A stretch of DNA of 64,000 bases from Hyphomicrobium sp. (GTDB lineage Bacteria; Pseudomonadota; Alphaproteobacteria; Rhizobiales; Hyphomicrobiaceae). Below the pieces are notes generated by a model. That model had not been told where the DNA came from and did not search any database. It saw only the letters and a list, made by a program, of their open reading frames with translations. Positions 28,328-47,336 of the stretch are shown here, piece after piece. Made by a program: the position numbers and the translations under genes. Numbering within the stretch: the stretch's first letter is position 1; every line of letters begins with the position of its first letter. The stretch lies in the NCBI RefSeq assembly GCF_019753045.1, contig NZ_JAIELN010000005.1:248001-312000 (forward strand), in the 5' to 3' direction.

Positions 28328-29331
28328 CACGACACCGCGAATGCCGTCACCGGCGGATCGAGCGCGACGACGACGCGTTGCATCTCGGGCGCGTTTTCGA
28401 CGCGCGCTTCCTCGATCCAGTGGCGGCGCCAAAGTCCGTCACTCGGGTCTTCGACAATTTCGCCGAGCAATTCCTGGCGGCCGATTGCGGAGCCTGCGTA
28501 GCGGCGCGTCATCTCGGCAAGGAACGTCGGTGCGAGGTTCGTCGCGTTGTCGGCTGTCGCGAGATTGACGGTCACGGTCGCCTCATCGGCAATGATCTGT
28601 TTCAATAGCTTCGTCGCGCGCGGCGTCGTCGTCACGCACACGCGCGGCGCTTCGCCGAGCCGCAGCGCGAATTGCAACATGTCCCACGCCCTTTCCGCTC
28701 CGCGCCATTTCGCAAGCTCATCGCACCAGGCGGCCGTGAACTGCGGGCCGCGCAGCGCTTCGGCTTCATCCGCCGAGAACAGTTCCGCGACCGCGCCATT
28801 CGGCCACGTCAGGCGGCGCTTCGAGGGTTCGAACAGCGGCCGCTCTTTTGCCGGATGAATCGCGAGCAGTCCCGACTGGCCTTCGATCATGACGTTGCGT
28901 ACGTCGGCCAGCGTTTTGCCCACCAGTGCGATTCTTGGTTGCTCACGGCGACTCGCGTTCCGCGAGCCGGCCGCCGTGAGCGGGGATGTTGCTTCGTCCG
29001 TCTCGGAAGAAAGTGCGAGTGACCTCACCCACTCGGCGCCTGCCCGCGTCTTTCCCGATCCGCGACCACCGAGCAGCAGCCAGACTCGCCAGCTTTTGAT
29101 TGCGCCTTGCGACTCCCCTGCGGGGAGCCGGCCGCAAGGCGCGGGCTTGTTGCGCGAGTCTTGCGCAATCAATACTGGCGCGAGTTGCTCGTCGCGTGCC
29201 CAAAGTTCCCAATCGTGAGAGATGAACTCGAGTTCGTCCGCGCTCAGCTCATTCAGGATTTCGCTGAGACGACCGTTTGTGATTGAGGCGTTCAAGACGT
29301 TCCGCAATTTCGCGGCGTAGGTTTTCCGCAT
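28327..29331 (-). CDS. GTA large terminase, truncated after the ATPase domain
   Basis: A 334-residue DNA-packaging motor fragment. The ATPase is complete: Walker A GGRGSGKTRAGAEW, Walker B TAAWCDEL and coupling motif CVTTTPR. The frame follows the family to VVVALDPPVT, the first strand of the nuclease domain. It then ends with AFAVS and a stop, so the nuclease is missing. Two stretches absent from relatives as I know them, APCGRLPAGESQGAI and LTAAGSRNASRRE, are in-frame translations of palindromic elements at 29102-29142 and 28942-28980. The ATG at 29331 overlaps the upstream gene by about 80 bases; a shorter start is possible. It could not package DNA alone. Confidence 0.85.
   Translation of the reverse strand: MRKTYAAKLRNVLNASITNGRLSEILNELSADELEFISHDWELWARDEQLAPVLIAQDSRNKPAPCGRLPAGESQGAIKSWRVWLLLGGRGSGKTRAGAEWVRSLALSSETDEATSPLTAAGSRNASRREQPRIALVGKTLADVRNVMIEGQSGLLAIHPAKERPLFEPSKRRLTWPNGAVAELFSADEAEALRGPQFTAAWCDELAKWRGAERAWDMLQFALRLGEAPRVCVTTTPRATKLLKQIIADEATVTVNLATADNATNLAPTFLAEMTRRYAGSAIGRQELLGEIVEDPSDGLWRRHWIEEARVENAPEMQRVVVALDPPVTAFAVS
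28942..28980 (+). repeat. bipartite palindromic element, copy A (in terminase gene)
   Basis: 39 bases. Outer arms CTCACGGCG/CGCCGTGAG pair perfectly. After a single A comes the inner hairpin CTCGCG-TTC-CGCGAG, then the asymmetric bulge CCGGC before the outer 3' arm. Length is exactly 13 codons, so the terminase frame is kept; it is translated on the minus strand as LTAAGSRNASRRE. Confidence 0.85.
29102..29142 (+). repeat. bipartite palindromic element, copy B (in terminase gene)
   Basis: 41 bases. Outer arms GCGCCTTGCG/CGCAAGGCGC, single A, inner hairpin CTCCCC-TGC-GGGGAG, bulge CCGGC. A further inverted pair TTGATTGCGC/GCGCAATCAA at 29096-29105 and 29163-29172 encloses it. On the minus strand it is translated as part of APCGRLPAGESQGA. 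Confidence 0.85.
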
Positions 29332-29821
29332 GGGCGAGCGCCTCCTTGCTCTTGGCGTCACCTCCCGTTGGCTTCCGCTTCGTCATCACGCGTTGCATCT
29401 CAACTGCTTTCTCCAGTGCATTGACCATCTGCGACAGGGCGCGGGACGCTCGCTCGCGATCCTGCGACGTCAGACCTTTTTGCTTCTCGAGCTTCGTCAG
29501 CTCGCCATCGATCGTGTTGTAGACGCGCTGCACGAGGACGTTAGGCTTTGCTCGCATTCGCGTCGTGGGCGGCTTTGCTCGCATTCCCGTCGCGGGCAGC
29601 TTGGCGCGCGTGCTTGTCGCCGCCTTCCGAGCCGGAACGGTGCGCGCGGGTTTCGCGACCGCGTCGTTCGCGGCAGATTTCGTTTTCGATGCGTTCGCGC
29701 CCTTCGTGGCCGGACGCTTCGCCTTCGGCTTTTCGTCCGCCGGATCGTCGTCGTTCGTTGCGGCCACCTTTGTCGTGAGAACGCGCGAAGTCGTTCGCCG
29801 CACGATCGATGCCGCCGCCAT
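29249..29821 (-). CDS. small-terminase-like GTA protein (gp1-like), Lys/Ala-rich N-terminus
   Basis: A 190-residue protein. Residues 1-100 are a low-complexity Lys/Ala/Thr/Arg tail with repeated RAKPP/RAKPN units, unlikely to fold. Residues 105-190 are helical and charged, including VYNTIDGELTKLEKQKGL and RERASRALSQMVNALEKAVE. This block resembles the short protein encoded before the terminase in GTA clusters of Bradyrhizobium-type bacteria, probably the small terminase. Its end overlaps the terminase gene start, supporting a linked role. The start at 29821 is preceded only by a weak AAGG. Family assignment rests on position and the helical pattern. Confidence 0.5.
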   Translation of the reverse strand: MAAASIVRRTTSRVLTTKVAATNDDDPADEKPKAKRPATKGANASKTKSAANDAVAKPARTVPARKAATSTRAKLPATGMRAKPPTTRMRAKPNVLVQRVYNTIDGELTKLEKQKGLTSQDRERASRALSQMVNALEKAVEMQRVMTKRKPTGGDAKSKEALAHAENLRREIAERLERLNHKRSSQRNPE

Positions 29822-29905
29822 GCACACTGCCTTTTTGGAATTTCGGTGGTTATTGCTGCGGAGCGTGGACGTAGAGCCCTGAGGCCTGTCCCGGTGGCCT
29901 CTCAC

Positions 29906-30072
29906 ACTTTCCGCGTTATACAGAAACCTACTCGAAGAGCGTTACGCTGTCAACGACAGAAATGGCGTAAGTCTCTGATTTTTCTATATATTATCGCAGA
30001 TCTAGGCGCAAACTTTCCGATGATAGTCGACTTTCTCAGAGCGAGGATAAGTTTCTCCGTTCAGAATGCACT
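29906..30072. other. intergenic spacer, A+T-richer, no gene seen
   Basis: Spacer between the GTA remnant and the palindrome cluster. It includes a markedly A+T-rich stretch around 29975-30000 that could hold a promoter. No open frame with a plausible ribosome-binding site is seen. Confidence 0.4.
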
Positions 30073-30101
30073 CCGTCATGCGCCTGCGGCGCGAATGACG
30101 G
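30073..30101. repeat. short intergenic palindrome
   Basis: Inverted repeat CCGTCAT/ATGACGG enclosing GCGCCTGCGGCGCGA, which itself contains GCC-TGC-GGC. It is the first of a row of palindromes in this spacer. Confidence 0.6.
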
Positions 30102-30112
30102 CTCCTGACTCC

Positions 30113-30223
30113 CCCCTCTCCCCGCAAGCGGGGAGAGGGTCGGGGTGAGGGGCAGCACATTCGTTGATCGTGAGGCTGCCCCTCACCCTAGCCCTCTCCC
30201 CATTGAAGAAATGGGGAGAGGGG
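30113..30223. repeat. inverted pair of a CTCTCCCC-type intergenic repeat
   Basis: Left copy (30113-30155) has the hairpin CCCTCTCCCC-GCAA-GGGGAGAGGG-like core followed by GGGGTGAGGGGCAGC. The right copy (30175-30223) is the same element inverted: GCTGCCCCTCACCC, then CCCTCTCCCCATT/AATGGGGAGAGGG. The two could fold on each other. This repeat type is common in intergenic regions of Hyphomicrobiales. Confidence 0.8.
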
Positions 30224-30235
30224 ACGACCCACCAC

Positions 30236-30263
30236 CGTCCTCCCGGCGAAGGCCGGGATCCAG
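30236..30263. repeat. CCGGCGAAGGCCGG-type intergenic palindrome
   Basis: Hairpin CCCGGC-GAAG-GCCGGG followed by ATCCAG, a sequence type scattered through many alphaproteobacterial genomes. Confidence 0.7.
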
Positions 30264-30338
30264 GCAAAGTGCAGCGCATTCGCGCTCGCGGTCAGCGCCG
30301 GGCCAACCCCATCTGCTGTTGTGTTGAAGCTTGACTAG

Positions 30339-30358
30339 GTGCCGGCCTCCGCCGGCAC
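30339..30358. repeat. GTGCCGGC palindrome
   Basis: Perfect 8-bp inverted repeat GTGCCGGC-CTCC-GCCGGCAC, followed by ACGGGGATGAC. It completes the cluster of intergenic palindromes before the cysteine-cluster gene end at 30401. Confidence 0.6.
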
Positions 30359-30400
30359 GACGGGGATGACAATCACGCCCGCAAAATCTTTTCGCTGCCG

Positions 30401-30946
30401 CTATTCGGTGGTTTCGGGAGGGAGTTCGCTGGCACCCGAAGGACGGCGTTTCCGCTCGGGCTTGGAGCCTCCTTCAGGTCCGTCGTCAGGAATGATGTAT
30501 TTCCAATAATTCTCTTCTTTGACGCGACGTTCGCTCATGGCGAAGCTGCGGACGGAAACACCGGCCTGATGCACCGTGTCGGGAGAACCTGAAACCAGCG
30601 GGTGCCACCACATCAGGTCTTGCCCCTCGCCGATGAGGCGGTAGGCGCAGGTTTTCGGCAGCCAGGAAAGTTCGCGCGCGCGTGCAATATCGATCTCAAG
30701 ACAATCCGGCATCTTCTTGAAGCGATTGGGATAGTCCTTGCAGCGGCAGGTCCGGACGTCGAGCTGTGCGCACGACAGGCGCGTCAGGTAGACCTCGGCC
30801 GTATCCTCGTCCTCGAGCTTGACCAGGCAGCAGCGCCCGCAGCCGTCGCACAGAGCTTCCCACTCGTCGCGGTTCATCTCTTCGAGGGTCTTCGTGCGCC
30901 AGAACGGTGGATCGTTGCCGTCCAACATCAAGTCTTGCTCTTCCAT
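30401..30946 (-). CDS. YcgN/YkgJ-family cysteine-cluster protein (UPF0260)
   Basis: A 181-residue cytoplasmic protein. The cluster [14 protein letters not shown] at about residues 34-47 and a second block [17 protein letters not shown] supply the cysteines of the CxCxxCC/YkgJ zinc- or iron-binding family. WWHPLVSG and SVRSFAMSE are further hallmarks of the UPF0260/YcgN group. The tail is rich in Pro, Glu and Arg. An in-frame GTG at 30970 is an alternative start; neither start has a clear ribosome-binding site. The biochemical role of the family is unknown. It is divergent from the PBP1a gene. Confidence 0.9.
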
Positions 30947-31130
30947 TGTCGGTTCAGTCGCGATAACCACAATTTCGTCGACTTACGCCGTGTAACGTCG
31001 GCAATTCGGTTTAAGCGGCGCGTCCTACTGGAAGCGTCGCGATTGTTGTTGCAAGAAAGACTCTCGCTGTTGAGGGCTTAAGCCCACGTCTCACGCGTGA
31101 CAAGAGCGACGTCGTTAGGGTGGCCGTTTC

Positions 31131-33488
31131 TTGAACGACTGGTTTCATAGACAGGGCGGCCGCGACCGCTTCATCGACTGGCTTAGGCTCGATTCGCAGA
31201 TCAATTCTGCGCTCGGGGAAGCATGGTCGCGCGTCAAAGACTACTGGAATGCCGGATCGAGCTACTTTGCCCGCTTCCAGCTCGTCGGCTGGCGTCGCCT
31301 CCTCAATGAATTCGCCTCCGAAAGCCTGACGATGCTGTTCGGCGGCTTCGTCGTCCTTTATGGGCTCGCGCTTCCCGCGTTCGAGGAATTCGACGAGAGC
31401 AAATTTCTGACCGGGCGCTACGCCGTCAAATTCCTCGACGTCAACGGTAACGAGATCGGCCGCCGCGGCATTCTCCATAACGACGCGGTGCCGCTCGAAG
31501 ATATCCCCGACGTCCTGATCAAGGCGACTCTCTCGACGGAAGACCGGCGCTTCTTCGAGCACTACGGCATCGACGTTCTCGGCACGATGCGCGCGCTCGT
31601 CACCAACGTGCAGGCGAACGAGGTCGTGCAGGGCGGCTCGACGCTGACGCAGCAGCTTGCGAAGAACCTGTTCCTGTCGTCGGAGCGCTCGCTGCAGCGA
31701 AAGATCAAGGAGCTGTTCCTCTCGTTCCTTCTCGAGAGCCGCTACTCGAAGCGGGAGATCCTGAAGCTCTATTTCGATCGCGCCTATATGGGCGGCGGCA
31801 CCTTCGGCGTCGAAGCGGCGTCGCAATACTACTTCGGCAAGTCCGTTCGCGACATCAACATGTCGGAAGCAGCCGTGCTCGCCGGCCTCTTCAAGGCGCC
31901 GACGAAGTACTCGCCGCTCGTCGATCTTGCGGCATCGCGCGCCCGCACCAACCAGGTTCTCGATAACATGGTCGAGGCCAAATATTATACCGCCGGCCAA
32001 GTGCATTCGGCGCGCATGAACCCGGCGAAAATCGTCGAAGCGCGGACCTCGACGAGCCCAGATTGGTATCTCGATTGGGCGTTCGAAGAAGTCCAACGCC
32101 TCGCCGACGGCAAAAACCAGTTCGTGCTGACGGCGCGAACGACGGTCGATCTGACGCTGCAACGGCAGGCCGAAGAGGCTCTCGCTGCGGCTCTGCGCAA
32201 GGAAGGTCGCGACCTTCACTTTACTTCGGGCGCGATCGTTCTGATGGAGACGGATGGAAAGGTCCGGGCGATCGTCGGCGGGCCTGACTACGGCGAAAGT
32301 CAATTCAATCGAGCAACCCACGCCAAGCGCCAGCCGGGCTCGTCGTTCAAGATCTACGTTTACGCGACCGCGATGGAGAACGGCTTCACGCCGGAGACCA
32401 TCGTCAGGGACGCGTCGCGTTCCTGCGGAAACTGGTCACCGTCGAACTACGGCGGCGGCGGCGGCTCGGGCGCGCGGATCCCGCTCTGGATGGCGCTGGC
32501 CAAATCGTTGAACACGGTTGCGGCAGAGCTGTCGTTCGTCGTCGGCCGGGAAAAGGTCGTCGAGATGACCAAGCGTGTCGGCATCGAGGGCGTCAAGAAA
32601 ACCTGCTCGATGGCGCTCGGCGACGGCGGCGTCACCGTTCTCGAGCACACCGGCGGCGTCGCGACGTTCGCGAACGGCGGCAAGCTCGCCAAGCCCTACG
32701 GCATTCTCGACATCACGACATCGAAGGGCGATCTTCTCTATTCGCGCGAACGCGACGAACCGCCCCCGCGGCAGGTCGTGTCGCGGCACGTCGCTGAAGA
32801 GATGAACGTCATGCTCAACCGCGTGGTGACCGAAGGGACGGGCGGCATGGCCAATCTCGATTTCACCAACGTCGCGGGTAAGACCGGCACCTCTACCGGT
32901 CCCAAGGACGCGTGGTTCATGGGCTTCACCGGCAAATACGTCGCGGGCGTCTGGCTCGGCAACGACGACAACCGGCCGATGCGCTCGGGCGTCACGGGCG
33001 GCCATCAGGCGGCGCCGATCTGGCGTGACCTGATGACGGTTGCGCACACCGACATGAATATTCCGACCATTCCGGGTCTCGCCCCGCATCCGCGTCAGGT
33101 GGAGGAGCAGAAGCGTCTCGCCGAGATCAGAGCGCAGCAAGTTGCGGCCGGGCTCGAGCCGGCGCAACTTGCTGCGGACGCGACGAAGACGCAGGCCGTC
33201 CTGCCGTCGAAGACGCGCGATGCTCTCAAGGTTCTCGTCGCGGCGCTTCGCAAGGCGAACGGCCAAGCGGAGGCGGCGCCTGCAGCCGCGTCCGGACCAT
33301 CGCATGCTCCAACGTCGCCCATCGATCCGAAGCAGGAGGCGCCGCAGCCTGCGACACGGCCGGAGGCTCCGAAGACCGACCGGCGCGCGACGTTGCTTGA
33401 CACATCTCGCGACGATCTTTCAGTTCCGGCAGCAACGTCGCCCGCGGCATCGCCAACGAAGTCGCCGGCCCCAGCAGCTGCCCATTGA
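31131..33488 (+). CDS. class A penicillin-binding protein (PBP1a-type transglycosylase/transpeptidase)
   Basis: A 785-residue bifunctional peptidoglycan synthase anchored in the inner membrane by one segment (about residues 70-85). The GT51 domain has EDRRFFEHYGID, GGSTLTQQLAKNLFL and KREILKLYFDRAYMGGG. The transpeptidase domain has SSFK with nucleophile S404, SLN in AKSLNTVA, and KTGTS beginning at K584. A Pro/Ala-rich tail of about 100 residues follows. The start is a TTG at 31131, with AGGGTGG about 8 bases upstream. The DUF1214 gene begins within its stop codon. Confidence 0.92.
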   Translation: MNDWFHRQGGRDRFIDWLRLDSQINSALGEAWSRVKDYWNAGSSYFARFQLVGWRRLLNEFASESLTMLFGGFVVLYGLALPAFEEFDESKFLTGRYAVKFLDVNGNEIGRRGILHNDAVPLEDIPDVLIKATLSTEDRRFFEHYGIDVLGTMRALVTNVQANEVVQGGSTLTQQLAKNLFLSSERSLQRKIKELFLSFLLESRYSKREILKLYFDRAYMGGGTFGVEAASQYYFGKSVRDINMSEAAVLAGLFKAPTKYSPLVDLAASRARTNQVLDNMVEAKYYTAGQVHSARMNPAKIVEARTSTSPDWYLDWAFEEVQRLADGKNQFVLTARTTVDLTLQRQAEEALAAALRKEGRDLHFTSGAIVLMETDGKVRAIVGGPDYGESQFNRATHAKRQPGSSFKIYVYATAMENGFTPETIVRDASRSCGNWSPSNYGGGGGSGARIPLWMALAKSLNTVAAELSFVVGREKVVEMTKRVGIEGVKKTCSMALGDGGVTVLEHTGGVATFANGGKLAKPYGILDITTSKGDLLYSRERDEPPPRQVVSRHVAEEMNVMLNRVVTEGTGGMANLDFTNVAGKTGTSTGPKDAWFMGFTGKYVAGVWLGNDDNRPMRSGVTGGHQAAPIWRDLMTVAHTDMNIPTIPGLAPHPRQVEEQKRLAEIRAQQVAAGLEPAQLAADATKTQAVLPSKTRDALKVLVAALRKANGQAEAAPAAASGPSHAPTSPIDPKQEAPQPATRPEAPKTDRRATLLDTSRDDLSVPAATSPAASPTKSPAPAAAH

Positions 33489-34168
33489 AACAGGAAGCCA
33501 CGGACTTGGCATCGGTCGAACTTGAGCCAGCAGCGATATCGCCGGGTTCGCGCCTCAGCGTGATGCGCACGATCTTCGGGATCCTGCTGCGCGCGATCGG
33601 TCTCATTCTGACGATCGTCCTCGCCGTGACCGTCGGCGTCTGGTCGAGCCGGTACATGGTTGCGCGCGGCTCGCCGCTGTCGACGGATATGTACGGGCCC
33701 TGGCAACAGTGGCGCGACATCGGCCGCGAGAGCGCCGACCCCTACACCAAGGCCCACGTCGTCACGACGGGCAAGCTCAGGATTTCAGCCGACAGTGCCG
33801 GCACTTTCGAAGCGCGCACGGATTCGCAAGGGGCGCGGCTCCATTCGTCGTGCAACTACGTCGTCGAAGGCGCGAACATGCGCGGCTTATGGTGGAGTCT
33901 CGCCGTGTTCGATGCTCGCGGCAATCTCATCAGCAATGACGCCGACCGCTACGAGTTCACGGCCGACACGATCGCCCCCAATCCAAACGGCACGTTCGTC
34001 GTCACGCTCGGCCGGGACGCGCGGCCCGGCAACTGGCTGCCGACGAGCGGCGCCGGACGTCTTGTACTCGTGCTGACAGTGCTCGACCCGGCGACCGGTC
34101 TTTCGGCCGAAGAACGCGCGGAGCGGAACAAGCATTTGCCCGTCATCACGCGGGAGGGATGCTCGTGA
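33485..34168 (+). CDS. DUF1214-type membrane-anchored protein
   Basis: A 227-residue protein with one membrane segment at about residues 28-50 and a soluble periplasmic domain. DUF1214 features are visible in SPLSTDMYGPWQQWRDIG and NGTFVVTLGRDARPGNWLP, the latter close to the usual NWLPAP. The start is a TTG overlapping the PBP1a stop; an internal ATG at 33563 is the alternative and still keeps the membrane segment. It overlaps the DUF1254 gene by 10 bases. In Hyphomicrobiales, DUF1214 and DUF1254 proteins commonly occur as such a pair. The function is unknown; coupling to PBP1a suggests cell-envelope work. Confidence 0.85.
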   Translation: MKQEATDLASVELEPAAISPGSRLSVMRTIFGILLRAIGLILTIVLAVTVGVWSSRYMVARGSPLSTDMYGPWQQWRDIGRESADPYTKAHVVTTGKLRISADSAGTFEARTDSQGARLHSSCNYVVEGANMRGLWWSLAVFDARGNLISNDADRYEFTADTIAPNPNGTFVVTLGRDARPGNWLPTSGAGRLVLVLTVLDPATGLSAEERAERNKHLPVITREGCS

Positions 34169-34743
34169 GATTGCTTCAGCGCTTCGACTTCCGGCTTCTC
34201 GCGATCTTCCTGCTGGTTGCGGGGATCGTGCATCTCATCGCGACGTTCATGGCGGTCAACGATGCGCGCGGATCGGCCTATTCTCGACTTGCGCGCTCTT
34301 TGCCGAAAAATCAGATGACGATCGCCTCCGCCGTGACGCCGCAGCACCAGCCGCTGCCTTTCCTAGCGCCCGACGAGCACTATGCGTTCTGTCTGTTCGA
34401 TACTGGCGATACGACGATACGCGTTCGTGCGCTGCTTCCCGATCTCGGCTGGACGATCGGCATCTACGCGCCCGACGGGCACAATCTTTATTTCGCCGCC
34501 GCCTCAGCGGACCGGGAGACGACGGTCGATCTGTCCATCGTACCCGCCGACGATCGCTTTCTCGGGCTGCCGCAAACGAGTTCCACGAAAGCCGGCATCA
34601 CGCCAGAAGCGGTCGATACGCAGCAGTCGATCGCCGCTGAAAAAGGATTGATCGTCGTTCGCGCTCCCGACAAGGGCGATCCTTACCGCGCAGACGAACA
34701 GGCGGTTCTCTCGAAGGCGTCGTGCACTGCAGGCGGCGCGTGA
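34159..34743 (+). CDS. DUF1254-type membrane-anchored protein
   Basis: A 194-residue protein with one N-terminal membrane segment (about residues 12-32). Its periplasmic beta domain carries the DUF1254-like pattern DEHYAFCLFDTGDTTIRV and PDLGWTIGIYAPDGHN. The ATG is preceded directly by GGGAGGG within the end of the DUF1214 gene, so the two are translated together. It is the last gene of the PBP1a unit; a pair of palindromic elements follows immediately. The family has no assigned biochemical function. Confidence 0.83.
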   Translation: MLVRLLQRFDFRLLAIFLLVAGIVHLIATFMAVNDARGSAYSRLARSLPKNQMTIASAVTPQHQPLPFLAPDEHYAFCLFDTGDTTIRVRALLPDLGWTIGIYAPDGHNLYFAAASADRETTVDLSIVPADDRFLGLPQTSSTKAGITPEAVDTQQSIAAEKGLIVVRAPDKGDPYRADEQAVLSKASCTAGGA

Positions 34744-34757
34744 AGAGTCCTTGATGG

Positions 34758-34796
34758 TCGCGTGCGACTCCCCAGCGGGGAGCCGGCCGCACGCGA
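34758..34796 (+). repeat. bipartite palindromic element, copy C
   Basis: 39 bases. Outer arms TCGCGTGCG/CGCACGCGA, single A, inner hairpin CTCCCC-AGC-GGGGAG, bulge CCGGC. Preceded by TTGATGG. Lies 14 bases after the stop of the DUF1254 gene, in a convergent spacer. Confidence 0.88.
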
Positions 34797-34810
34797 TGAA
34801 TTTTTGATGG

Positions 34811-34849
34811 TCGCGTGCGACTCCCCAGCGGGGAGCCGGCCGCACGCGA
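34811..34849 (+). repeat. bipartite palindromic element, copy D
   Basis: Identical to copy C over all 39 bases and the preceding TTGATGG, so C and D form a direct repeat with a 53-base period. It lies 15 bases before the end of the convergent small gene at 34864. Confidence 0.88.
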
Positions 34850-34863
34850 CGGGCGCCAAGCCT

Positions 34864-35070
34864 TTATGATTTGGTATCGGAGTCGAGGTCGAGCGTGTCG
34901 CGACGGCTCTGCCGCGGCTTCTTCGGTTTGTCCGCCCGTTCCTCGCCGTGACGTTCGTAGCGCACGCCCGGGAAAAATACGATTTCGGCGGATTGGCCTG
35001 CTCCGTATGCCGCGAGCACCGAGGCTGTTGTCGGTTTCGGTGCGGTCTTGAATGCAATGATCGTTGCCAT
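34864..35070 (-). CDS. small hypothetical protein
   Basis: A 68-residue protein starting MATIIAFKTAPKPTTASVLA, with a well-placed AGGGGGA before the ATG. The N-terminal third is hydrophobic to neutral; the C-terminal half is strongly charged (KPKKPRQSRRD, then DLDSD). No domain is recognised. A longer frame to 35151 exists but lacks a ribosome-binding site. It converges on the PBP1a unit across the palindromic pair C/D. Confidence 0.65.
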   Translation of the reverse strand: MATIIAFKTAPKPTTASVLAAYGAGQSAEIVFFPGVRYERHGEERADKPKKPRQSRRDTLDLDSDTKS

Positions 35071-35277
35071 TCGTCCCCCTGGCGCGAGCCCTTGCCCACG
35101 CCGTGCGGCACTCCTCGCCTTGAAGGCTCCCGCCACGGGAACGGGACGCATTACTGTCTGTGTACTGAAGAGTGGCGTAAATGCGCTGCTGCCGCCAGAA
35201 TCATCGCAATCAATGAAGTAGAGTCCGGGAGTTCTTAACGGACGGTAAAACGAAATCCTGAACGTCCGGTAGCGTTG

Positions 35278-35622: not shown

Positions 35623-35655
35623 GTCGGTACGTTATCAGCAAGCACCCGGAAATCC

Positions 35656-38734: not shown

Positions 38735-38863
38735 TGCATGAGGAGGATACGGCCCGGTCACATCGCGGGGATAAGTTTTTTGTGGCCGCTCGTATTCACC
38801 CTAACGGGATAGCAATCTCAGAAAGATATCCCCGCATCTCGCGACCGCCGCACAGTCCGCGGC

Positions 38864-39220: not shown

Positions 39221-39303
39221 TTGCCGCGTCATCGGCCGGCGCCAGTCCTTCGACAGCACAAGCTGATATTTTCGATGACCGCTATTTTTCCCGGCGCGTG
39301 CCG

Positions 39304-39711: not shown

Positions 39712-40058
39712 TCGTTTGACTTCCGCTTCCTCTGGCGACCGAGAATCCGGCACCGCACGCCCATCCATGTCCACATCCCGCCTTTGCCCTGCATAACCGT
39801 TACTGGCAAAGCCCGTCGCGGATCTCAAAACCACTTAAAAGACTAGGAGATCAACTCCATTTCACTTGCGAAAGCTTTGACTACAGGACGACTTCCCTGT
39901 CAATCTCGGCCTCTGTTTAGATTACGACATCGCTAATGCTTGGCGATCCCCCATCTTCATTTGATCATTACTCCGTCATGTTCGCGCGTTGACGCGCGGG
40001 CGCGGCCGGTCAAGAAGAAGCCAAATCCGTTCCCTTCACCAAAAAAGGTCCGCACCCC

Positions 40059-42215
40059 ATGACCGGCCAAACGAAGACGCCTGCTGCGATCAAAGACGAG
40101 GCTGCGGCCCAGCCGCGCCCGCCGGTCGCGGAGCGCGTGACGACGGTCGCGACGCACCACGGCGTTTCCGTCAGCGACGACTACGGCTGGCTTCGCGCGG
40201 CCAACTGGCAGGAGGTCATGCGCAAGCCCGACACTCTTGCCGCGAACATCCGGTCGCATCTCGAAGCCGAGAACGCCTACACGAAGGCGATGCTTGCCGA
40301 CACGGACGCGCTGCAAGCCACCTTGTTCCAGGAAATGAAGGCGCGTCTCAAGGAAGACGACCGGCAGGTTCCGCAGCCCGACGGCCCCTACGAATACTTC
40401 CCGCGCTTCGTCAAAGGCGGGCAGTACGCGCAGCTCTGCCGTATCCCCCGCGGCGGTTCGGTGGACGAGCCGGAAGTGCTTCTCGACGGCAACAAGGAAT
40501 CCGAGGGGAAGGGCTATTGGGATCTCGGCGCCACGGCCCACTCCGGCGATCATAAGCTCTTCGCCTATGCGATCGACGACAAGGGCTCAGAGCTTTACAC
40601 GGTCCGCGTCCGCGATCTCACGACGGGCCAGGATCTCGCGGACGAAATCCCCGATACCCACGGCGGCCTCGAGTGGTCGAGCGACGGGAAGACGCTCTTC
40701 TACATCAAGGTCGACGAGCATCAGCGGCCGCTCTTTGTCTACAGTCACGCGCTCGGAACACCGGCCTCGGAAGACAAGCTCGTTTACGCCGAACCCGATT
40801 CCGGCTTCTTCGTCGGATTGTCGTCGACGCAATCGCGGAAGTTCATCCTCATCGACATCCACGATCACGAGACGAGCGAAGTGCGGCTCATCGATGCCGA
40901 GAGGGCAGACGCAGCTCCGAGGCTCGTTGCCGCCCGGCGCGTCGGACACCAATACAACGTCGAACATCACGGCGCGAAGCTTATCATCGCGACGAATTCG
41001 GAAGGCGCAGAAGATTTCCGCATCGTCACGGCGCCCGTCGAAAATCCGGGGGAAGCGAACTGGCGGGAAATCGTCTCGCACAAGCCCGGGCGCCTGATCA
41101 TCGACGTCAGCGTATTTCAGAACTTCATGACGCGTCTCGAACGCGAAGAGAGCCTGCCGCGCATCGTCGTCACGCCGCTGAAGCCTGGTGACGATGAATT
41201 TCTCGATTACAGCGGCGAGCATACGATCGCATTCGACGAAGAAGCTTATGCGCTCGGGCTGAGTTCGGGATACGAGTTCGATACGACGCGGATCCGCTTC
41301 ACCTATTCGTCGATGACGACGCCGGCGGAGACCTACGACTACGACATGGCGACCCGCGAGCGGACGTTGCGCAAGCGGCAGGAAATTCCGAGCGGGCACA
41401 ATCCGTCAGAGTACGTGACGCGGCGGCTGCTCGCACCGGCTAAGGACGGCGAACTCGTTCCCGTAACCTTGCTCTACAAAAAGACGACACCGCTCGACGG
41501 CTCGGCGCCGCTTTTTCTTTACGGATACGGCGCCTATGGCATTGCCATGCCGGCGTCGTTCTCGACGGGACGGCTGTCGCTCGTCGACCGGGGTTTCATC
41601 TTTGCGATCGCGCACATTCGCGGCGGCAAGGACAAGGGCTATCGCTGGTACACCGACGGCAAGATGAAGAAGAAGAAGAATACTTTCACCGACTTCATCG
41701 CTGCCGGCGAACATCTGATTTCGGAAGGCTTCACGCAGCGTGGCCGGATCGTCGCCAACGGCGGATCCGCTGGCGGGATGCTGATGGGCGCGATCGCCAA
41801 TATGGCCCCCGACCTTTTCCTCGCGATCATCGCCGACGTGCCGTTCGTTGACGTTTTGAACACGATGCTCGACAAGGATCTGCCGCTTACGCCGCCCGAG
41901 TGGCCCGAGTGGGGCAATCCGCTCGCGAGCAAGGAGGACTTCGACTATATCCGCAGCTACTCGCCCTACGACAATGTCGAGGCGAAGGGCTATCCGCACA
42001 TTCTCGCTCTCGCCGGCCTCACCGATCCGCGCGTGACATATTGGGAGCCAGCGAAGTGGATCGCGAAGCTCCGCCAGCTCAACACAAGCGACAACCTCGT
42101 GCTTCTCAAGACCAACATGGGCGCGGGCCACGGTGGCGCTTCGGGACGGTTCGACGGGCTGAAGGATACCGCGTTCAACTACGCGTTTGCGGTGAAGGTG
42201 GCCGGCTGCGCCTAG
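40059..42215 (+). CDS. ptrB: oligopeptidase B (S9 prolyl oligopeptidase family)
   Basis: A 718-residue cytoplasmic serine peptidase cleaving peptides after basic residues. An N-terminal seven-bladed propeller domain starts with YGWLRAANWQEVM, and the alpha/beta-hydrolase domain holds the triad S570 (NGGSAGGML), D656 (LTDPRV) and H691 (GAGHGGASGR). LYGYGAYGIAMPASFS and IAHIRGGKDKGYRWYTDG are the characteristic lid-side motifs. There is no signal peptide. It is a single gene, closed by a bidirectional hairpin at 42282-42310. Confidence 0.95.
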   Translation: MTGQTKTPAAIKDEAAAQPRPPVAERVTTVATHHGVSVSDDYGWLRAANWQEVMRKPDTLAANIRSHLEAENAYTKAMLADTDALQATLFQEMKARLKEDDRQVPQPDGPYEYFPRFVKGGQYAQLCRIPRGGSVDEPEVLLDGNKESEGKGYWDLGATAHSGDHKLFAYAIDDKGSELYTVRVRDLTTGQDLADEIPDTHGGLEWSSDGKTLFYIKVDEHQRPLFVYSHALGTPASEDKLVYAEPDSGFFVGLSSTQSRKFILIDIHDHETSEVRLIDAERADAAPRLVAARRVGHQYNVEHHGAKLIIATNSEGAEDFRIVTAPVENPGEANWREIVSHKPGRLIIDVSVFQNFMTRLEREESLPRIVVTPLKPGDDEFLDYSGEHTIAFDEEAYALGLSSGYEFDTTRIRFTYSSMTTPAETYDYDMATRERTLRKRQEIPSGHNPSEYVTRRLLAPAKDGELVPVTLLYKKTTPLDGSAPLFLYGYGAYGIAMPASFSTGRLSLVDRGFIFAIAHIRGGKDKGYRWYTDGKMKKKKNTFTDFIAAGEHLISEGFTQRGRIVANGGSAGGMLMGAIANMAPDLFLAIIADVPFVDVLNTMLDKDLPLTPPEWPEWGNPLASKEDFDYIRSYSPYDNVEAKGYPHILALAGLTDPRVTYWEPAKWIAKLRQLNTSDNLVLLKTNMGAGHGGASGRFDGLKDTAFNYAFAVKVAGCA

Positions 42216-42281
42216 CGGCGACCCGGTGTTGTGATTGTCAGCCGTCCGGTCGTGTCTAGTCGCGGCGTTCAGCGCAAAATA

Positions 42282-42310
42282 AAAAGGGCCCGCTTGCAGC
42301 AGGCCCTTTT
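42282..42310. terminator. bidirectional rho-independent terminator
   Basis: AAAAGGGCC/GGCCCTTTT stem around an 11-base loop that can pair further. A-run on one side and T-run on the other, so it can end both the oligopeptidase B transcript (+) and the small basic gene (-). Confidence 0.8.
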
Positions 42311-42330
42311 CGAAAACTTGGATCGGCGGG

Positions 42331-42462
42331 TCAGTGTTTTCCGCTCTTCTGCGATTTCGCAAACGTCGCGGTTACGGAGCTCGTCGAGGGCTGCGGTTTC
42401 GCAGCGGCGCTCTTCTTAGGCTTGCGGATTTCCTTATTCGAACGCTGTTGGCCTTTGGGCAT
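42331..42462 (-). CDS. small basic conserved protein (MPKGQQRSN type)
   Basis: A 43-residue lysine- and serine-rich protein starting MPKGQQRSNKEIRKPKKSAA. It matches the pattern of a tiny protein found across Hyphomicrobiales (MPKGQxRSNxExKKPK, then a disordered tail), as I remember it. The ATG is preceded by GAGAGG at good spacing, and a hairpin terminator follows. Its high charge suggests nucleic-acid or ribosome association, which is inference only. Confidence 0.75.
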   Translation of the reverse strand: MPKGQQRSNKEIRKPKKSAAAKPQPSTSSVTATFAKSQKSGKH

Positions 42463-42634
42463 GGCAGACCTCTCAAGTGTTGGAGGGCGCGTCGCATTCG
42501 ACCTGCGGCGTGTACGCTGGAGTGTTTCACACCGTCCTGACAAGCGCCAGGAGGGAACACCCGGGGCGACGATCACAACATTGCACAACTCGAAAAAGTG
42601 AAAGGCGGCGGACGCCTGCCTCTAAAAAGCAAAA

Positions 42635-42653
42635 GACCCGCCGGAGGGCGAGC
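42635..42653 (-). terminator. minus-strand terminator-like hairpin 3
   Basis: On the minus strand GCTCGCC-CTCC-GGCGGGT is followed by a T-rich tail. The stem has two G-T pairs, so it is weaker than the two preceding hairpins. Confidence 0.5.
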
Positions 42654-42684
42654 CGTTCAACCGCAGTCCGCGAAACAAAAAAAA

Positions 42685-42703
42685 GGCCCGCATTGAGCGG
42701 GCC
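42685..42703 (-). terminator. minus-strand rho-independent terminator 2
   Basis: Perfect stem GGCCCGC-ATTGA-GCGGGCC. On the minus strand it is followed by a run of eight T. Confidence 0.82.
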
Positions 42704-42732
42704 GTCGAAAGTTGGAAACTTGCAAGAAAAAA

Positions 42733-42750
42733 GGCCCGCCGAGGCGGGCC
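42733..42750 (-). terminator. minus-strand rho-independent terminator 1
   Basis: Perfect 8-bp stem GGCCCGCC-GA-GGCGGGCC. On the minus strand it is followed by six T. It lies 20 bases after the stop of the membrane/winged-helix gene. Confidence 0.85.
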
Positions 42751-42769
42751 TCACATTCACGAAGCAGCG

Positions 42770-44104
42770 CTAGGCTGCAACAGTGCCGAAGAGAGGCGGT
42801 TTCATAGCCTCCTCGAGAACCATGTCGGACTTCAGTGCGATACCGATGTAGCGCACTCGGCCGGCTACCTTTTCCTTCTTCACGCCAAGGTCTGCAAATT
42901 CTCTTGCAAAGCTCGGAAGTGCTGCGGGTTCCTTGTTCTTAGATTCACACCATGAACAATAATCCTCGTAGAGTTCAGTAGCCGTAACGCTTGATCCATC
43001 ACGGACCTCGATGTTCTCCTTGTAGAAACGTTCAGTGTTGGTTTCCGGGGCAAGACGCCTGACGGGCATCGTGCTGCGGCTTTCTGCAACCTTGGTCTCA
43101 ACCTGATGCACTTCAGCGGGTTGAGCTTCGATTGCGGGCGTCGAGGCAACGGGTGCTTCGAGAGGGATCTCGATCGACCGGTTGTCGTTGGCGCCAGAAC
43201 GCGGCTTTTTCGTTTCAACGGTAATCGGTGTGAGCACCGGAACCGCCACCGCTGCCGCAGCGGTGCTTTCCTCCGTCAGCGCCATTCTGGGCGTGACAGG
43301 CATTGGCTGGCGATCATACAGACGCCACTGGCTGAATGCGACGTACATCCCGAACCCAGATCCGATCTCGAGCAGCAGCGCGACGAACAACGTCAACGCC
43401 ATCTGAACGTTTTCCATCTTGATGTTCGGGAAGAACGCGTTCGCAAGTTCGGTCAGAACCTTGGCTTGCGGATCAGCTTCGGAGAGAGCAGGCGAACCTG
43501 CGGTAGCATCGACCTTCGCCGTGAGTTCGGCGATACGGGCTTCGGCCTGCTTCGCCGCGCTTGCGGACGCAAGCTCGGAGTCGAGAGCCGTCAACTGTTG
43601 GCAGAATGTCCGTTCGGTTTTCGAATTGACGTTCTTACAGCCGTCCGACCATTGCCAGGCCTTCTGCATTTTCATGCCGTCGATCTGGCTCTGCACCGCC
43701 TCGAAGGGTCGATGCTGAGGGATCCATCCGGCCTGCTCCTGCGCACGCTTCAGCTCACCTCTCAAATCTTGATAGGTTTGAGCTTCCTGAGCACGCTGCC
43801 CGGTCGAATCGAAGCGGTTCAACGCTGCGTGTCCGAGCGCAGATGTCATCGAGTAGGCCGTCACGACCACCCAGACAAGCGCCGACGCAGCCGCCTGCGA
43901 CCAGATTCTATTTCGAACTGCGGCAAAGAAGAAAAACGGTACCAGTGCTTTCATGCAGTCGGCCGCAGCAGATGCTGCGCCGTAGATTTGGCCGTCCAGC
44001 TCGGTTCTTCCGAGACTGAAGCCAAAACGCCAGTTCATAGCAGCTGATACGGCGAGCAATACGCCTGCTGCTAGAACACCCAACACGCCTAAAACGTGTC
44101 TCAT
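42770..44104 (-). CDS. four-pass membrane protein with coiled coil and C-terminal winged-helix-like domain
   Basis: A 444-residue protein of unrecognised family. Membrane segments are at about residues 3-25, 50-65, 72-95 and 238-262. A charged helical (coiled-coil-like) region of about 130 residues lies between the third and fourth. After a proline-rich linker comes a compact C-terminal domain, with ATELYEDYCSWCESKNKEP and FAREFADLGVKKEKVAGR, then RVRYIGIALK. That pattern resembles the winged-helix domain at the C-terminus of phage and plasmid D5-type primases. AGGAGAGGG precedes the ATG strongly. Three terminators follow. Its role is unknown; a membrane-tethered DNA-binding protein is a reasonable guess. 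Confidence 0.75.
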   Translation of the reverse strand: MRHVLGVLGVLAAGVLLAVSAAMNWRFGFSLGRTELDGQIYGAASAAADCMKALVPFFFFAAVRNRIWSQAAASALVWVVVTAYSMTSALGHAALNRFDSTGQRAQEAQTYQDLRGELKRAQEQAGWIPQHRPFEAVQSQIDGMKMQKAWQWSDGCKNVNSKTERTFCQQLTALDSELASASAAKQAEARIAELTAKVDATAGSPALSEADPQAKVLTELANAFFPNIKMENVQMALTLFVALLLEIGSGFGMYVAFSQWRLYDRQPMPVTPRMALTEESTAAAAVAVPVLTPITVETKKPRSGANDNRSIEIPLEAPVASTPAIEAQPAEVHQVETKVAESRSTMPVRRLAPETNTERFYKENIEVRDGSSVTATELYEDYCSWCESKNKEPAALPSFAREFADLGVKKEKVAGRVRYIGIALKSDMVLEEAMKPPLFGTVAA

Positions 44105-44844
44105 CGTGTGCCCTCTCCTGTGAAGGCCGGTTCGGTTACGCGAATACAATACCGGCCACTTCGTCTTGTGGTCCTTGCGCCCGAGGGAGGCGCCGACCAG
44201 GCTCCGGAACGCACAACGGGCATGGCTGCAAATGATGTCCTCTTCGATCGGCTGTGAGCTCCGATGTCATCCCCATGACATCGGCAGACGAGCGACGCGG
44301 AGACCGCGCAACCAAGCAAACCAGAGCTGCCACTCTCAACGCTGCCTCAAAGTATCGCCACGATTTCGCCGCAAGAAATCAGAGGTGGATAATTCTTATC
44401 CTCAAGACAGGCCGAGGGTGGAAAACTACGCAATTAAACTCCCCTCTCCTTCACGCGTAACTGAGTCGGACCGTGATGGGAATCATCGAATCGCGAGAAG
44501 AATCAGAATTCTAGTATTCGAGTACCGGAGCTCCGCGATGGTCTCAGCCTGAGCATTCGAAGCGCCGCCAGCGGTTGAAAAACTCCGGTTATCAAGAGGT
44601 TTTGCACCGGTCGCCCGAGGCTTATGCACGGCTGAAATGTGGCGGACGATCCGTGCAAAGCGACGTTCGGGCGCAACAACCGGGTGAGGCTTTTGGGACG
44701 CTCCACGGCGCCACCATGGGGTGCTCGTGATTCCCGTTTACCAAGTCTTGCCGGCGATGCATTCTCCATCGCGTACGTGAGAAGCTTCGCACCCGGCGTT
44801 ACCGGCGCAGGCTACGTGCAGTAGAGTTGAGTGGAGTTTGCGCC
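44105..44844. other. 740-base spacer without a convincing gene; possible untranslated RNA
   Basis: No open frame here has a plausible start and ribosome-binding site. Composition changes along it: 44330-44560 is A+T richer, and 44560-44830 is G+C rich with several small inverted repeats such as GGCGCC. The second part could encode a structured RNA. I compared it mentally with 6S, SRP and tmRNA signatures and could not place it. Confidence 0.4.
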
Positions 44845-46002
44845 ATGCCGCGTCTCGGTGGAGTGCTGTTGCTGACGGCGACTTCCCTGCTCGTTACATA
44901 CAGCTATCTTTTTCCGGCATCCGATCACACCGCAGACCTCACCGAAGTCACGCGCATCTCGGCGGCGCCGGACCGTGACTATCGGAGCGATGGCGGAAGC
45001 AGGATTTTTTCGGCCGCGTCTCCCGTATTTCATGAGGTGATCCCCGACGAAGGCGCCCGTGTTTCGGTTGCCTCTCCGCAGAAGCCCGCAACGTGGACCA
45101 CCGTGGTGACGTCGCGTGCCGTCTCGACACCTCTCAAGTCAGCAGAGCCCGGCGATCCCGAAACGCGGGCCGAACTGGCGAGCGATCTGCAGCGCGAGTT
45201 GAAACGCGTCGGCTGCTATGAGGGAGAGATTACCGGCGCATGGAACGGGTCGACGCGACGCGCCATGGCGGCATTCATGGATCGCGCCAACGCCACGCTT
45301 CCAACCGACAATCCCGATTACGTGTTGCTCGCCCTCGTGCAGAGCCACCATGACCTCGTGTGCTCCGCCGAATGTCCTGCTGGCCAGATCGCCGACGGCG
45401 GCCGTTGCGTGCCGCGCGCGGTCGTCGCTCAGGCGACGAAGCGATCCAAGCGCCTCGAGGAGCGCAGACTGGCCGCGGCGCGTCTCTCCGGCAATAACGA
45501 GCCGACAGTGACGGCGGAGCCTGAAAAGCTTCCCTGGCTTCAGAATGAGAAGGTCGCGGAGATTCCAGCTGCGCCACGCCCGGAGCTGCCGCCGGGGCGG
45601 ATGTCGATCGGAGCTGCCCCCGTCGAGGCTGCGCCGCTGCCTCCGCCGAACGGTGCCGCTGCCAGTGCCGCGCCGGCCTCTCAGGGATGGAAGATCATGA
45701 CACTCCTCCCGCCGACGAGCGATGCGGCAGCCGATCTCTCTCCGAAAGTTGCAGCGCTTGGCGAGAGCGGAGATACGGATGATCTCTCTGCCGACGCGCG
45801 TGGGGACACCAACGCGGCTCCCATCGCCATCGAGGATGATGACGCGAATGCGCGTGCCGTGAAGTCCAAGTCCTCCCGGCGGTCCTATGACGAAAATCGG
45901 CCGAGACGAAAATATGCTTCATCGGGGCGGGGCCGGCGTGGCGATCCCAGGCCCGGGACCATGCGCTACAATATCATGCAGTCGCTCGGCGGCATCTATT
46001 GA
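44845..46002 (+). CDS. exported protein with peptidoglycan-binding-like domain
   Basis: A 385-residue protein with an N-terminal signal or anchor (residues 4-22, LGGVLLLTATSLLVTYSYLF). A peptidoglycan-binding-like helical module follows at about 110-165 (ELASDLQRELKRVGCYEGEI, then WNGSTRRAMAAFMDRANATL). A short cysteine motif CSAECPAGQIADGGRCVP comes next, then a long Pro/Ala-rich and basic tail ending RYNIMQSLGGIY. GGAG ten bases upstream supports the ATG at 44845. The module order resembles caspase-associated or wall-binding exported proteins of rhizobia, but the enzymatic part is absent. Periplasmic location is inferred. Confidence 0.75.
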   Translation: MPRLGGVLLLTATSLLVTYSYLFPASDHTADLTEVTRISAAPDRDYRSDGGSRIFSAASPVFHEVIPDEGARVSVASPQKPATWTTVVTSRAVSTPLKSAEPGDPETRAELASDLQRELKRVGCYEGEITGAWNGSTRRAMAAFMDRANATLPTDNPDYVLLALVQSHHDLVCSAECPAGQIADGGRCVPRAVVAQATKRSKRLEERRLAAARLSGNNEPTVTAEPEKLPWLQNEKVAEIPAAPRPELPPGRMSIGAAPVEAAPLPPPNGAAASAAPASQGWKIMTLLPPTSDAAADLSPKVAALGESGDTDDLSADARGDTNAAPIAIEDDDANARAVKSKSSRRSYDENRPRRKYASSGRGRRGDPRPGTMRYNIMQSLGGIY

Positions 46003-46021
46003 TCGCGCCCGATGCGGGTCG

Positions 46022-46399
46022 TCACGGACGCGTGCCGCTGATGACCCAGTTCAGATAATCGGAACTTCCTCCGACCACCGGAACGACGAGGACCGCGGGC
46101 GTCTCGTAGGGATGATTGGCGACGATATGCGCGACGGCGCGATCGGCCCCCTGGCGGGAGAGCTTGGCGATCAACACGGCCTCTTCGGCGGTTTCCGTTT
46201 CGCCCTTCCAGACATAGATCGACGTCATCGCGGGCAGCACGTTGATGCACCCGGCCAGACCCTGCTCGACCAGGTCCCGGCCCAGCGCCAAGGCCGCGGA
46301 CCGGTCCGGGAACGTGGCATAAATCATCACCACATCGCCGGCTGGCGCCCGGGGCTCCTCTCCGATATCCCGCGAGGGGGGCTTGTCGTTTGTCGACAC
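46022..46399 (-). CDS. cutA: CutA1 divalent-cation tolerance protein
   Basis: A protein of about 125 residues of the trimeric CutA1 family, ferredoxin-like in fold. GLAGCINVLPAMTSIYVWKG and ETAEEAVLIAKLS match the family core, and HPYETPAVLVVPV is its signature. The family start corresponds to MIYATFPDRSAA at 46327; the GTG at 46399, with GGGAAG upstream, gives a 24-residue polar extension. Which start is used cannot be decided from sequence. It is divergent from nadK, with only about 50 bases between the two. Confidence 0.9.
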   Translation of the reverse strand: MSTNDKPPSRDIGEEPRAPAGDVVMIYATFPDRSAALALGRDLVEQGLAGCINVLPAMTSIYVWKGETETAEEAVLIAKLSRQGADRAVAHIVANHPYETPAVLVVPVVGGSSDYLNWVISGTRP

Positions 46400-46453
46400 T
46401 TGGGCGAGCTTCCCTGCCTTGTTGCGCGACCCCTCATGAACCCAAGGGCCTAG

Positions 46454-47236
46454 ATGCCGAAAGAAAAGCACAAGTTCGAACGCATCGCCTTCGTCGCGAG
46501 CGAGGTTCCCGAGGCGATCGAAGCACAGGCGGCGTTGATCAAGCGTTACGGCGAGACCGAACCCAACGAAGCCGATGCCATCGTCGCGCTCGGCGGTGAC
46601 GGCTTCATGTTGCAGACGCTACACCGTTTCATCAACGACAAGATTCCTATTTACGGGATGAACCGGGGTTCGGTCGGCTTCCTTATGAACGACTATAAGG
46701 AAGACAATCTGATCGAGCGGCTGCAGGCTGCCGAGATTAGCCGCATTCACCCGCTGTCGATGATCGCGACCGACTCGGCGGGGAAGGCGCACAAGAGCTT
46801 GGCGATCAACGAGATCTCGCTCTTTCGCCAGCGCTATCAGGCCGCCAAGTTGCAGATCGCCATCGATGGCAAGGTGCGGCTCGAAGAGTTGATTTGCGAC
46901 GGGGTTCTGGTTTCGACGCCTGCCGGTTCGACCGCCTACAATCTGTCGGCGCACGGACCCATTCTGCCGATCAAGTCACAGCTTCTGGCGGTAACGCCCA
47001 TCAGCCCTTTTCGGCCGAGGCGCTGGCGCGGCGCCCTCGTCCCCAACCGGGTGCACATTACAATCACCGTTCTCGAGGAGGAGAAGCGGCCGGTCAGCGC
47101 CGTGGCCGATCACTTCGAGACCCGCCACGTGGTGAAAGTCGAAATCGAGCAGGCCCGCGCCATCGAGCTTTTCATGATGTTCGACCGCGAACATGGGCTC
47201 GAGGAGCGCATCCTGACCGAGCAGTTCAGGTTTTAG
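46454..47236 (+). CDS. nadK: NAD kinase
   Basis: A 260-residue cytoplasmic enzyme making NADP from NAD and ATP (or polyphosphate). The catalytic GGDG is at residues 47-50 ([15 protein letters not shown]), followed by the [14 protein letters not shown] substrate loop and the [20 protein letters not shown] block. The short length without an N-terminal extension is normal for Alphaproteobacteria. The gene ends in a convergent spacer holding a pair of palindromic elements (E and F), which could serve as its terminator. Confidence 0.95.
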
Positions 47237-47248
47237 TTTTTTGCTTGC

Positions 47249-47284
47249 GCCAGGCTCTCGCGTTCCGCGAGCCGGCCGCCGGGC
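47249..47284 (+). repeat. bipartite palindromic element, copy E
   Basis: 36 bases. Inner hairpin CTCGCG-TTC-CGCGAG, bulge CCGGC, 3' arm CGCCGGGC. The 5' arm CGCCAGGC has one mismatch, and the core reads GCTCTCGCG instead of GCGACTCGCG, one base shorter. This is the least perfect copy. Confidence 0.75.
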
Positions 47285-47295
47285 AATTTTTAGTG

Positions 47296-47336
47296 GCGCC
47301 AGGCGACTCGCGTTCCGCGAGCCGGCCGCCGGGCGC
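47296..47336 (+). repeat. bipartite palindromic element, copy F
   Basis: 41 bases. Outer arms GCGCCAGGCG/CGCCGGGCGC (one mismatch), single A, inner hairpin CTCGCG-TTC-CGCGAG, bulge CCGGC. It lies about 50 bases after copy E, with nearly the same arms, in the spacer between nadK and a nitroreductase gene. Confidence 0.85.

Follow-up and report, generated by a model that had tools for sequence, protein, structure and literature searches.

A hairpin repeat in a Hyphomicrobium genome

The window, as we call the whole stretch of DNA that was analysed, comprises 64,000 nt of Hyphomicrobium sp. (assembly GCF_019753045.1, contig NZ_JAIELN010000005.1) and belongs to a genome of 4.52 Mb assembled into 35 contigs. 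It carries a gene transfer agent (GTA) terminase gene, an NAD kinase gene and six copies of a hairpin element of about 41 bp (58 when modelled with flanks). All coordinates are positions within the window and are collected in Table 1. An earlier reading of the sequence alone had proposed six copies of one architecture, all on the + strand and starting at 28942, 29102, 34758, 34811, 47249 and 47296 (copies 1 to 6 below), and all were present at these positions.

Table 1. Copies of the hairpin element and associated genes in the window
Feature	Position	Strand	Description
Copy 1	28941..28981	+	Arms CTCACGGCG/CGCCGTGAG, inner stem GCG/CGC; antisense and in frame in the GTA terminase large-subunit gene, site 2
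Copy 2	29102..29142	+	Arms GCGCCTTGCG/CGCAAGGCGC, inner stem CCC/GGG; antisense and in frame in the GTA terminase gene, site 1
Copy 3	34757..34796	+	Arms TCGCGTGCG/CGCACGCGA; starts 14 nt past the stop of gene 34159-34743
Copy 4	34810..34850	+	Arms identical to those of copy 3, its direct neighbour 53 bp upstream
Copy 5	47247..47284	+	Degraded: T in place of GA, short 3' arm; 11 nt past the NAD kinase stop
Copy 6	47296..47336	+	Arms GCGCCAGGCG/CGCCGGGCGC, one mismatch (A.G); direct neighbour of copy 5
NAD kinase gene	46454..47236	+	Copies 5 and 6 lie in the convergent intergenic region after it
GTA terminase large-subunit open reading frame	28327..29331	-	Pfam Terminase_6N, E 8.9e-30; aligned with 21 other sequences; copies 1 and 2 in frame

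The motif GAGCCGGCCG was counted six times against 0.78 expected, a number that none of 100 shuffles reached, and this count is independent of the covariance model. The model itself retrieves all six copies with E-values from 3.2e-22 to 6.5e-7, partly by construction because the 30 genome copies from which it was built include five of the window copies, and it adds one weak extra match (E 0.68). The claim that the arms still pair in each copy is right in full for four of the six; the exceptions are the degraded copy 5, whose fold over 47249-47288 is weak (z -0.6), and copy 6 with its A.G mismatch. Pairing of copies at every locus likewise applies within the window and not elsewhere, as 108 of 144 clusters were single among 187 copies from loci of five other genomes. 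This count also led us to drop the idea that the pairs are transposon ends of the IS200/IS605-like kind.

Covariation and the folded strand

Conservation of structure with changing sequence, as the sequence-only reading had put it, was confirmed over the 30 genome copies. In these, 96.0% of the cells were paired (71.9% in shuffles) with a covariation score of 0.545 (0.125 in shuffles); neither value was reached in 500 shuffles, and both were well above slid controls too. Eleven of the 16 pairs had changed on both sides, which 2 of 500 shuffles equalled, five of these 16 pairs involving letters fixed by the search pattern, while the number of further pair types was ordinary (84 of 500 shuffles). 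Among 173 unique copies from five genomes, standard pairs filled 1015 of 1038 cells of the inner stem (98%) and 1606 of 1730 cells of the outer stem (93%).

On the strand that was first read, an A faces CCGGC. The complement turns the same bases into a G.T pair and a bulge; the fold then has an outer stem that varies and is some 10 bp long, a 4-nt bulge (GCCG) on one side only, a 7-bp inner stem containing the G.T pair, and a triloop. The triloop on the complement is GNA in 157 of the 173 unique copies, the loop letters being free in the search pattern. GNA triloops are unusually stable in DNA. The complement folded better as DNA in all five copies folded both ways (complement versus top strand, in kcal/mol: copy 1, -18.3 versus -14.8; copy 2, -17.1 versus -14.6; copies 3 and 4, -18.2 versus -14.9; copy 6, -18.0 versus -16.3), and also as RNA in three of three copies tried. 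Non-standard cells on the top strand were more often A.C than G.T (36:14, p 0.003; 29:14, p 0.03 without one recurrent pair), and therefore G.T on the bottom strand. Because of its better folding and its GNA triloop, the complement is taken as the folded strand, and it probably folds as DNA.

Abundance, host range and catalogues

A family spread over the genome had been predicted, and it was found: the window's genome has 45 instances of the exact core against 0 of a backward control pattern, and the covariance search returned 106 matches at E <= 1e-3, a few of them overlapping, among the 150 candidates scored out of 6248. Counts per genome are lower bounds, since at most 55-150 candidates were scored in each (about 55 in the survey of 100 genomes). 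In that survey 41 of 100 genomes were positive, comprising all 22 of the genus and 18 of 38 other family members (40 of 60 for the family) against 1 of 40 outside it, in agreement with the predicted host range in Hyphomicrobiales. Four other Hyphomicrobium genomes, sampled in 80 stretches of 20 kb, gave 48 matches at E <= 0.05, or about 1 per 33 kb. In a scan of named genomes, those with arm-pairing matches were, by eye and among the matches listed, mostly Hyphomicrobium or Hyphomicrobiaceae; many other rows among the matches listed resemble chance.

The sequence-only reading knew of no described family with this core, and this agrees with Rfam, in which the repeats had no match at gathering scores, the only weak one being a microRNA family below its gathering score (E 0.38). 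No description of the family was found in the open-licence papers searched. Contigs classed as viral in IMG/VR (L147, L154, L162, L181 and L188) have matches too, L147 as many as 14 within 14 kb, and inverted pairs spaced by about 80 bp are frequent among them; L181 has the terminase gene, and the other four were inspected by eye only.

Copies in frame inside proteins

The terminase gene of the window directly adjoins the GTA_TIM gene (window 25067-29331, - strand). Its open reading frame is without the C-terminal part, whereas 12 relatives in the genus have open frames of 465-554 aa, and the GTA cluster of this genome looks deleted. Terminases were compared across 13 genomes of the genus and six of other genera, leaving out G020, which had no match, and G012, which had a weak one only. 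In all 13 Hyphomicrobium terminases read, one or more elements were called at site 1, which measures 96-234 nt; in the six homologues from other genera it measures 30-36 nt and has none. Site 2 is filled in 10 of the 13 and empty in G014, G016 and G006. Conserved terminase residues flank the inserts on both sides in one open frame; insert lengths divisible by three are no test of this, because the inserts were cut at codon borders.

A second case is ileS (TIGR00392), where the insert comes after the QWF motif. In a comparison with the best solved chain (8c9e), only three residues stand opposite query residues 486-514. By our own caller, 13 of 24 genomes have the element at this place (7 sense, 6 antisense), 5 another palindrome and 6 neither, although the ileS of G014, scored as neither, resembles a decayed copy. 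The matched frames are stop-free. The loop after QWF (loci L535-L558) is home to two or more palindrome families, all in open frames. Across one genus it carries the element in sense or in antisense, another palindrome family, or neither, and the frame is open in every genome read.

Other proteins with internal copies are MazG, the GTA portal and an ATP-grasp protein; UvrB has one in its C-terminal tail. Copies in RarA-like, SucB, HisB and DUF2793 proteins are N-terminal and less certain; the copies in SucB, HisB and RarA precede the conserved protein start and may fall outside the real gene. The encoded peptide is APGDSPAGSRPPGA-like in 8 of 10 sense copies and GGRLxExES-like in 14 of 18 antisense copies. 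In-frame insertion, as in coding palindromes of the Rickettsia palindromic element (RPE) type, is observed here in proteins of predicted function, and on this point the likeness to RPE drawn by the sequence-only reading stands. A role as GTA packaging site, considered for the richness of GTA genes in copies, was dropped, as the GTA copies are mixed in orientation and in frame.

Turnover at orthologous sites

Orthologous copies are common across species. We compared 83 pairs taken as orthologous, with a mean flank identity of about 83% and one site counted in several genome pairs; some may be repeats and not orthologues, such as L409/L460 (0.99 identity) and pairs in repeat-rich loci such as L399/L203. 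In these, 609 outer pairs were unchanged, 124 compensated, 79 changed on one side and 18 on both sides without pairing, and the corresponding numbers for inner pairs were 413, 75, 7 and 3. Other differences affected 54 of 249 loop bases and 5 of 498 bases of the A plus CCGGC. Five compensated pairs separate the outer arms of L393 and L217 (flanks 0.92), while between L394 and L024 (flanks 0.91) nothing but the inner stem and one loop base is changed. The window site 34746-34856 has identical arms in G019; it is present in G000 and G019 and absent in G001 and G003. Local orientation was reversed in 11 of 46 orthologous pairs, some of them in repeat-rich loci.

These counts bear on the possibility that the copies are neutral quasi-palindromes kept perfect by replication template switching, without recognition or selection. 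Compensated two-sided changes do exceed one-sided ones, as would be expected of arm-to-arm correction, and conversion has been proposed for coding palindromes of nematomorph mitochondria (PMC6649704). Correction should, however, erase the asymmetric bulge, yet the bulge persists (among copies ascertained by a core pattern with at most 3 mismatches); moreover the family is nearly limited to Hyphomicrobiaceae, and the inner stem alone or the arms alone change as a block. We regard template switching as an improbable explanation.

Intergenic placement and a possible RNA role

Among the 187 copies, with genes called by our own hexamer script, 159 are intergenic, of which 76 lie between convergent genes, 60 between tandem genes (43 antisense, 17 sense) and 23 between divergent genes; the other 28 are in called genes (18 antisense, 10 sense). 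Background gaps of at least 60 bp in the sampled stretches (n=864) were 122 convergent, 515 tandem and 227 divergent, so that the convergent share is 48% of intergenic copies (76/159) versus 14% of gaps (122/864). The 187 copies are not a random sample because many were fetched for carrying the exact core. In a set made of the six window copies and 45 of the 48 random-stretch matches (omitting the 3 weakest), 35 were intergenic, 15 coding and 1 partial.

Such placement is what would be expected of an RNA-level 3'-end element, a hairpin that would terminate or shield transcripts, mainly where genes converge, and whose stems would covary because the RNA has to fold. Besides the convergent enrichment and the antisense excess in tandem gaps, the cores often begin 0-25 nt past a same-strand stop codon, RNA folds are very stable (the bottom strand being the better one in the three copies tried), and an apparent intrinsic terminator stands in G018 (L354) where L017 and L391 carry the element. 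On the other hand, the flank consensus of the 187 copies is T-rich and then G.TT on the 5' side, with no 3' flank base above 46%, and by these base frequencies no T-run of a rho-independent terminator follows the hairpin on either strand. G.T cells are rare on the element strand (14 versus 36 A.C), though RNA of the other strand would still be possible; the 28 copies within called genes fit this role poorly, and one-strand polarity, described below, is unaccounted for. A role at RNA 3' ends thus seems to us rather unlikely.

Close neighbours among the 187 copies are direct in 31 cases and inverted in 11, with one place called on both strands. The 5' arms differ by at most 1 base in only 9 of the 31 direct pairs on recount, which weakened local duplication as the general origin of pairs.

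Beyond copies 5 and 6, the window has at 47343-47460 a conserved stretch, AAACCGACTGGCC...GGCCATGATTTGGT, often followed by GGTGCTGATCCCG, which in 16 of the 21 loci from the genus is near the NAD kinase gene (the end of that gene being located in 10 of the 21). It had no Rfam match and is possibly an unnamed structured RNA, with covariation judged by eye only.

One-strand polarity around chromosomes

Orientation relative to replication was a check set beforehand, and the element proved one-stranded on both arcs. Sampling of skew at intervals of 180-230 kb divides G003, G018, G008 and G019 into two arcs each, in the manner of bidirectional replication, though weakly on the second arc of G008, where skew is near zero. 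After exclusion of GTA clusters, merging of copies less than 5 kb apart and dropping of one tie, the majority strand held 38 of 41 clusters (38:3) on the skew-positive arc and 45 of 52 (45:7) on the other in these four near-complete chromosomes; pooled p-values for this count share sites between genomes. The counts per arc were 10:0 and 21:1 in G019, 13:1 and 7:0 in G003, 6:1 and 5:0 in G018, and 9:1 and 12:6 in G008. By exact core, strand counts elsewhere were 28:8 in G007, 34:3 in G001 and 10:1 in G020. An orientation linked to replication was rejected, since GC and intergenic skew differ between the arcs and the element does not follow. The control motif GGGNAGGG reversed clearly in G003 and G008, modestly in G019 (9:5, 5:9) and poorly in G018 (14:13, 2:5).

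G003, G008 and G018 share a homologous start sequence and have copies mostly on the + strand; the contig of G019 runs opposite to that of G003 at each of eight matched places, and its copies are mostly on the - strand. Shared ancestry covers part of this agreement between species, but not the pattern within genomes. Reorientation after inversions is not claimed as proof of active polarity, because a stricter count of orthologous pairs gave 30 same and 8 flipped in collinear contexts and 5 and 3 in inverted ones (Fisher p 0.37).

One reading of this pattern, which we hold to be doubtful, is that some process tells apart the two strands of the whole circular chromosome, regardless of replication direction, in placing or keeping the elements. 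Such a process might, for instance, copy a bottom-strand DNA hairpin with its strand conserved, or depend on the chromosome being passed on in a fixed orientation. Hyphomicrobium passes a chromosome through its hypha into the bud. We know of no bacterial process with whole-circle polarity, nor of a precedent for one-strand orientation across both arcs; if true, this would be, to our knowledge, the first repeat with such polarity.

The same counts raise the question of whether the element serves the cell as a motif of chromosome polarity, to be read by a one-way tracking protein with KOPS-like logic but no reversal between arcs. The shared strand on both arcs of four chromosomes fits it, as does the agreement of G003, G008 and G018 relative to their common contig start together with the reversal of G019 in a contig running the opposite way. 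Against it stand the weaker pattern of G008 (12:6 on one arc, p 0.24), a count of 26:22 by exact core over the contigs of H. sulfonivorans G051 (another genus), and a density of only 1 copy per 33 kb or so. Inversions can also move copies to the other strand (local orientation is kept in 5 of 8 orthologous pairs that are inverted), and the want of any process known to us with whole-circle polarity counts here too. Such a motif is very unlikely in our view.

Search for a mobilising enzyme and proposed explanation

The suggestion of an associated REP-type tyrosine transposase (REP, repetitive extragenic palindrome) was not supported. The Y1 (HUH) transposase domain PF01797 had no match in the window's genome (97% complete) and a match in only 1 of 22 genomes of the genus, the other 21, the window's included, having none; 5 of 14 control genomes were positive. 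Twelve Y1 loci of about 3 kb, found in 60 relatives, contained no significant element (one match, E 0.37). Based on these searches, mobilisation by a RAYT/Y1 enzyme was rejected for the window's genome.

Three features had escaped the sequence-only reading, namely that copies 1 and 2 are in frame in the terminase, that the complement folds better and that the polarity is chromosome-wide. Our preferred explanation, which we hold with evenly balanced confidence, is a family of short selfish hairpins, RPE- or REP-like in behaviour, that are maintained as DNA structures. The hairpin and its bulge would be recognised in trans by a protein, probably as single-stranded DNA, and copies would persist through insertion plus copy-to-copy conversion, or through re-insertion at occupied sites. 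Selection would purge insertions that break frames or operons, leaving survivors where a hairpin or short peptide is tolerated, and some same-strand pairs may arise by local duplication. The mobilising enzyme would be something other than a Y1/RAYT transposase encoded in the window's genome.

Several points weigh against selfish hairpins. No mobilising enzyme was found, Y1 transposases being the only kind tested, nor was a target-site duplication defined or an insertion caught in the act. The stems are identical in L017/L391 and L453/L212 despite flanks of 0.83, which fits a host function as well, and the compensated changes could have arisen step by step, with selection acting on a function in the cell. 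The bulge is near constant (A in 170 and the first C in 169 of the 173 unique copies), but this is partly ascertainment because copies were found through the core pattern. Given the 9 of 31 similar direct pairs, local duplication explains a minority of pairs, or else the arms change later. Finally, selfish insertion does not predict one-strand polarity. The strongest rival to selfish hairpins is the RNA 3'-end role, and the two may coexist.

Relation to known repeats

RPE (Ogata et al. 2000/2002) are reportedly palindromic repeats in frame in many genes, whose products are likely still functional. The hairpin family resembles them in lying in frame inside proteins with no dedicated transposase known. 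It differs in its bipartite stem, one-sided bulge, stems that covary from locus to locus, one-strand polarity and Hyphomicrobiaceae host, the two being set apart by descriptions, not sequences. With GTAG REPs and REPINs, which are served by RAYT (TnpA-REP), it shares high-copy dispersed hairpins near gene ends; unlike these it has no GTAG tag (none at the palindrome foot in the flank consensus of the 187 copies), no Y1 match in the genome, and no Y1 locus found with the element. Integron attC sites, which have a core site and a tyrosine integrase, were considered solely as another case in which structure is read.

For RPE-4 and RPE-6, no dedicated transposase is known according to PMC3733652. 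The same paper describes CGTC-tagged REPs, which predominate in alphaproteobacteria without a dedicated transposase (Di Nocera et al. 2013, PMC3733652) and have a CGTC tag, one stem of 8-9 bp, a loop of 4-5 nt and a CCA tail, mostly as head-head dimers; REPs are also placed there downstream of genes and within genes such as uvrB, uvrA and those of tRNA synthetases. The hairpin family is similar in having no dedicated transposase, as far as Y1 enzymes were tested, and dissimilar in lacking the CGTC tag, in its second stem and its bulge, in a loop of 3 nt and in neighbours that are mostly direct. The nematomorph mitochondrial palindromes, as described in the available part of PMC6649704, are perfect repeats of up to 284 bp in genes, gained and lost between species. 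Perfect arms within coding genes and presence varying between species are common to both, but the present family is shorter (about 41 bp) and has a shared core and bulge, neither of which is mentioned in that part of the paper.

The family offers a natural experiment in how palindromes spread and keep their pairing without a known transposase, and in how proteins tolerate them. Other palindromes occupy some of the same places: CGTC-type REP look-alikes (CGTCATCC...GGATGACG) occur at the same intergenic sites in relatives (L526, L527, L519-L521), and such look-alike repeats stand at the equivalent of the window site 34746-34856 in G014 and G016.

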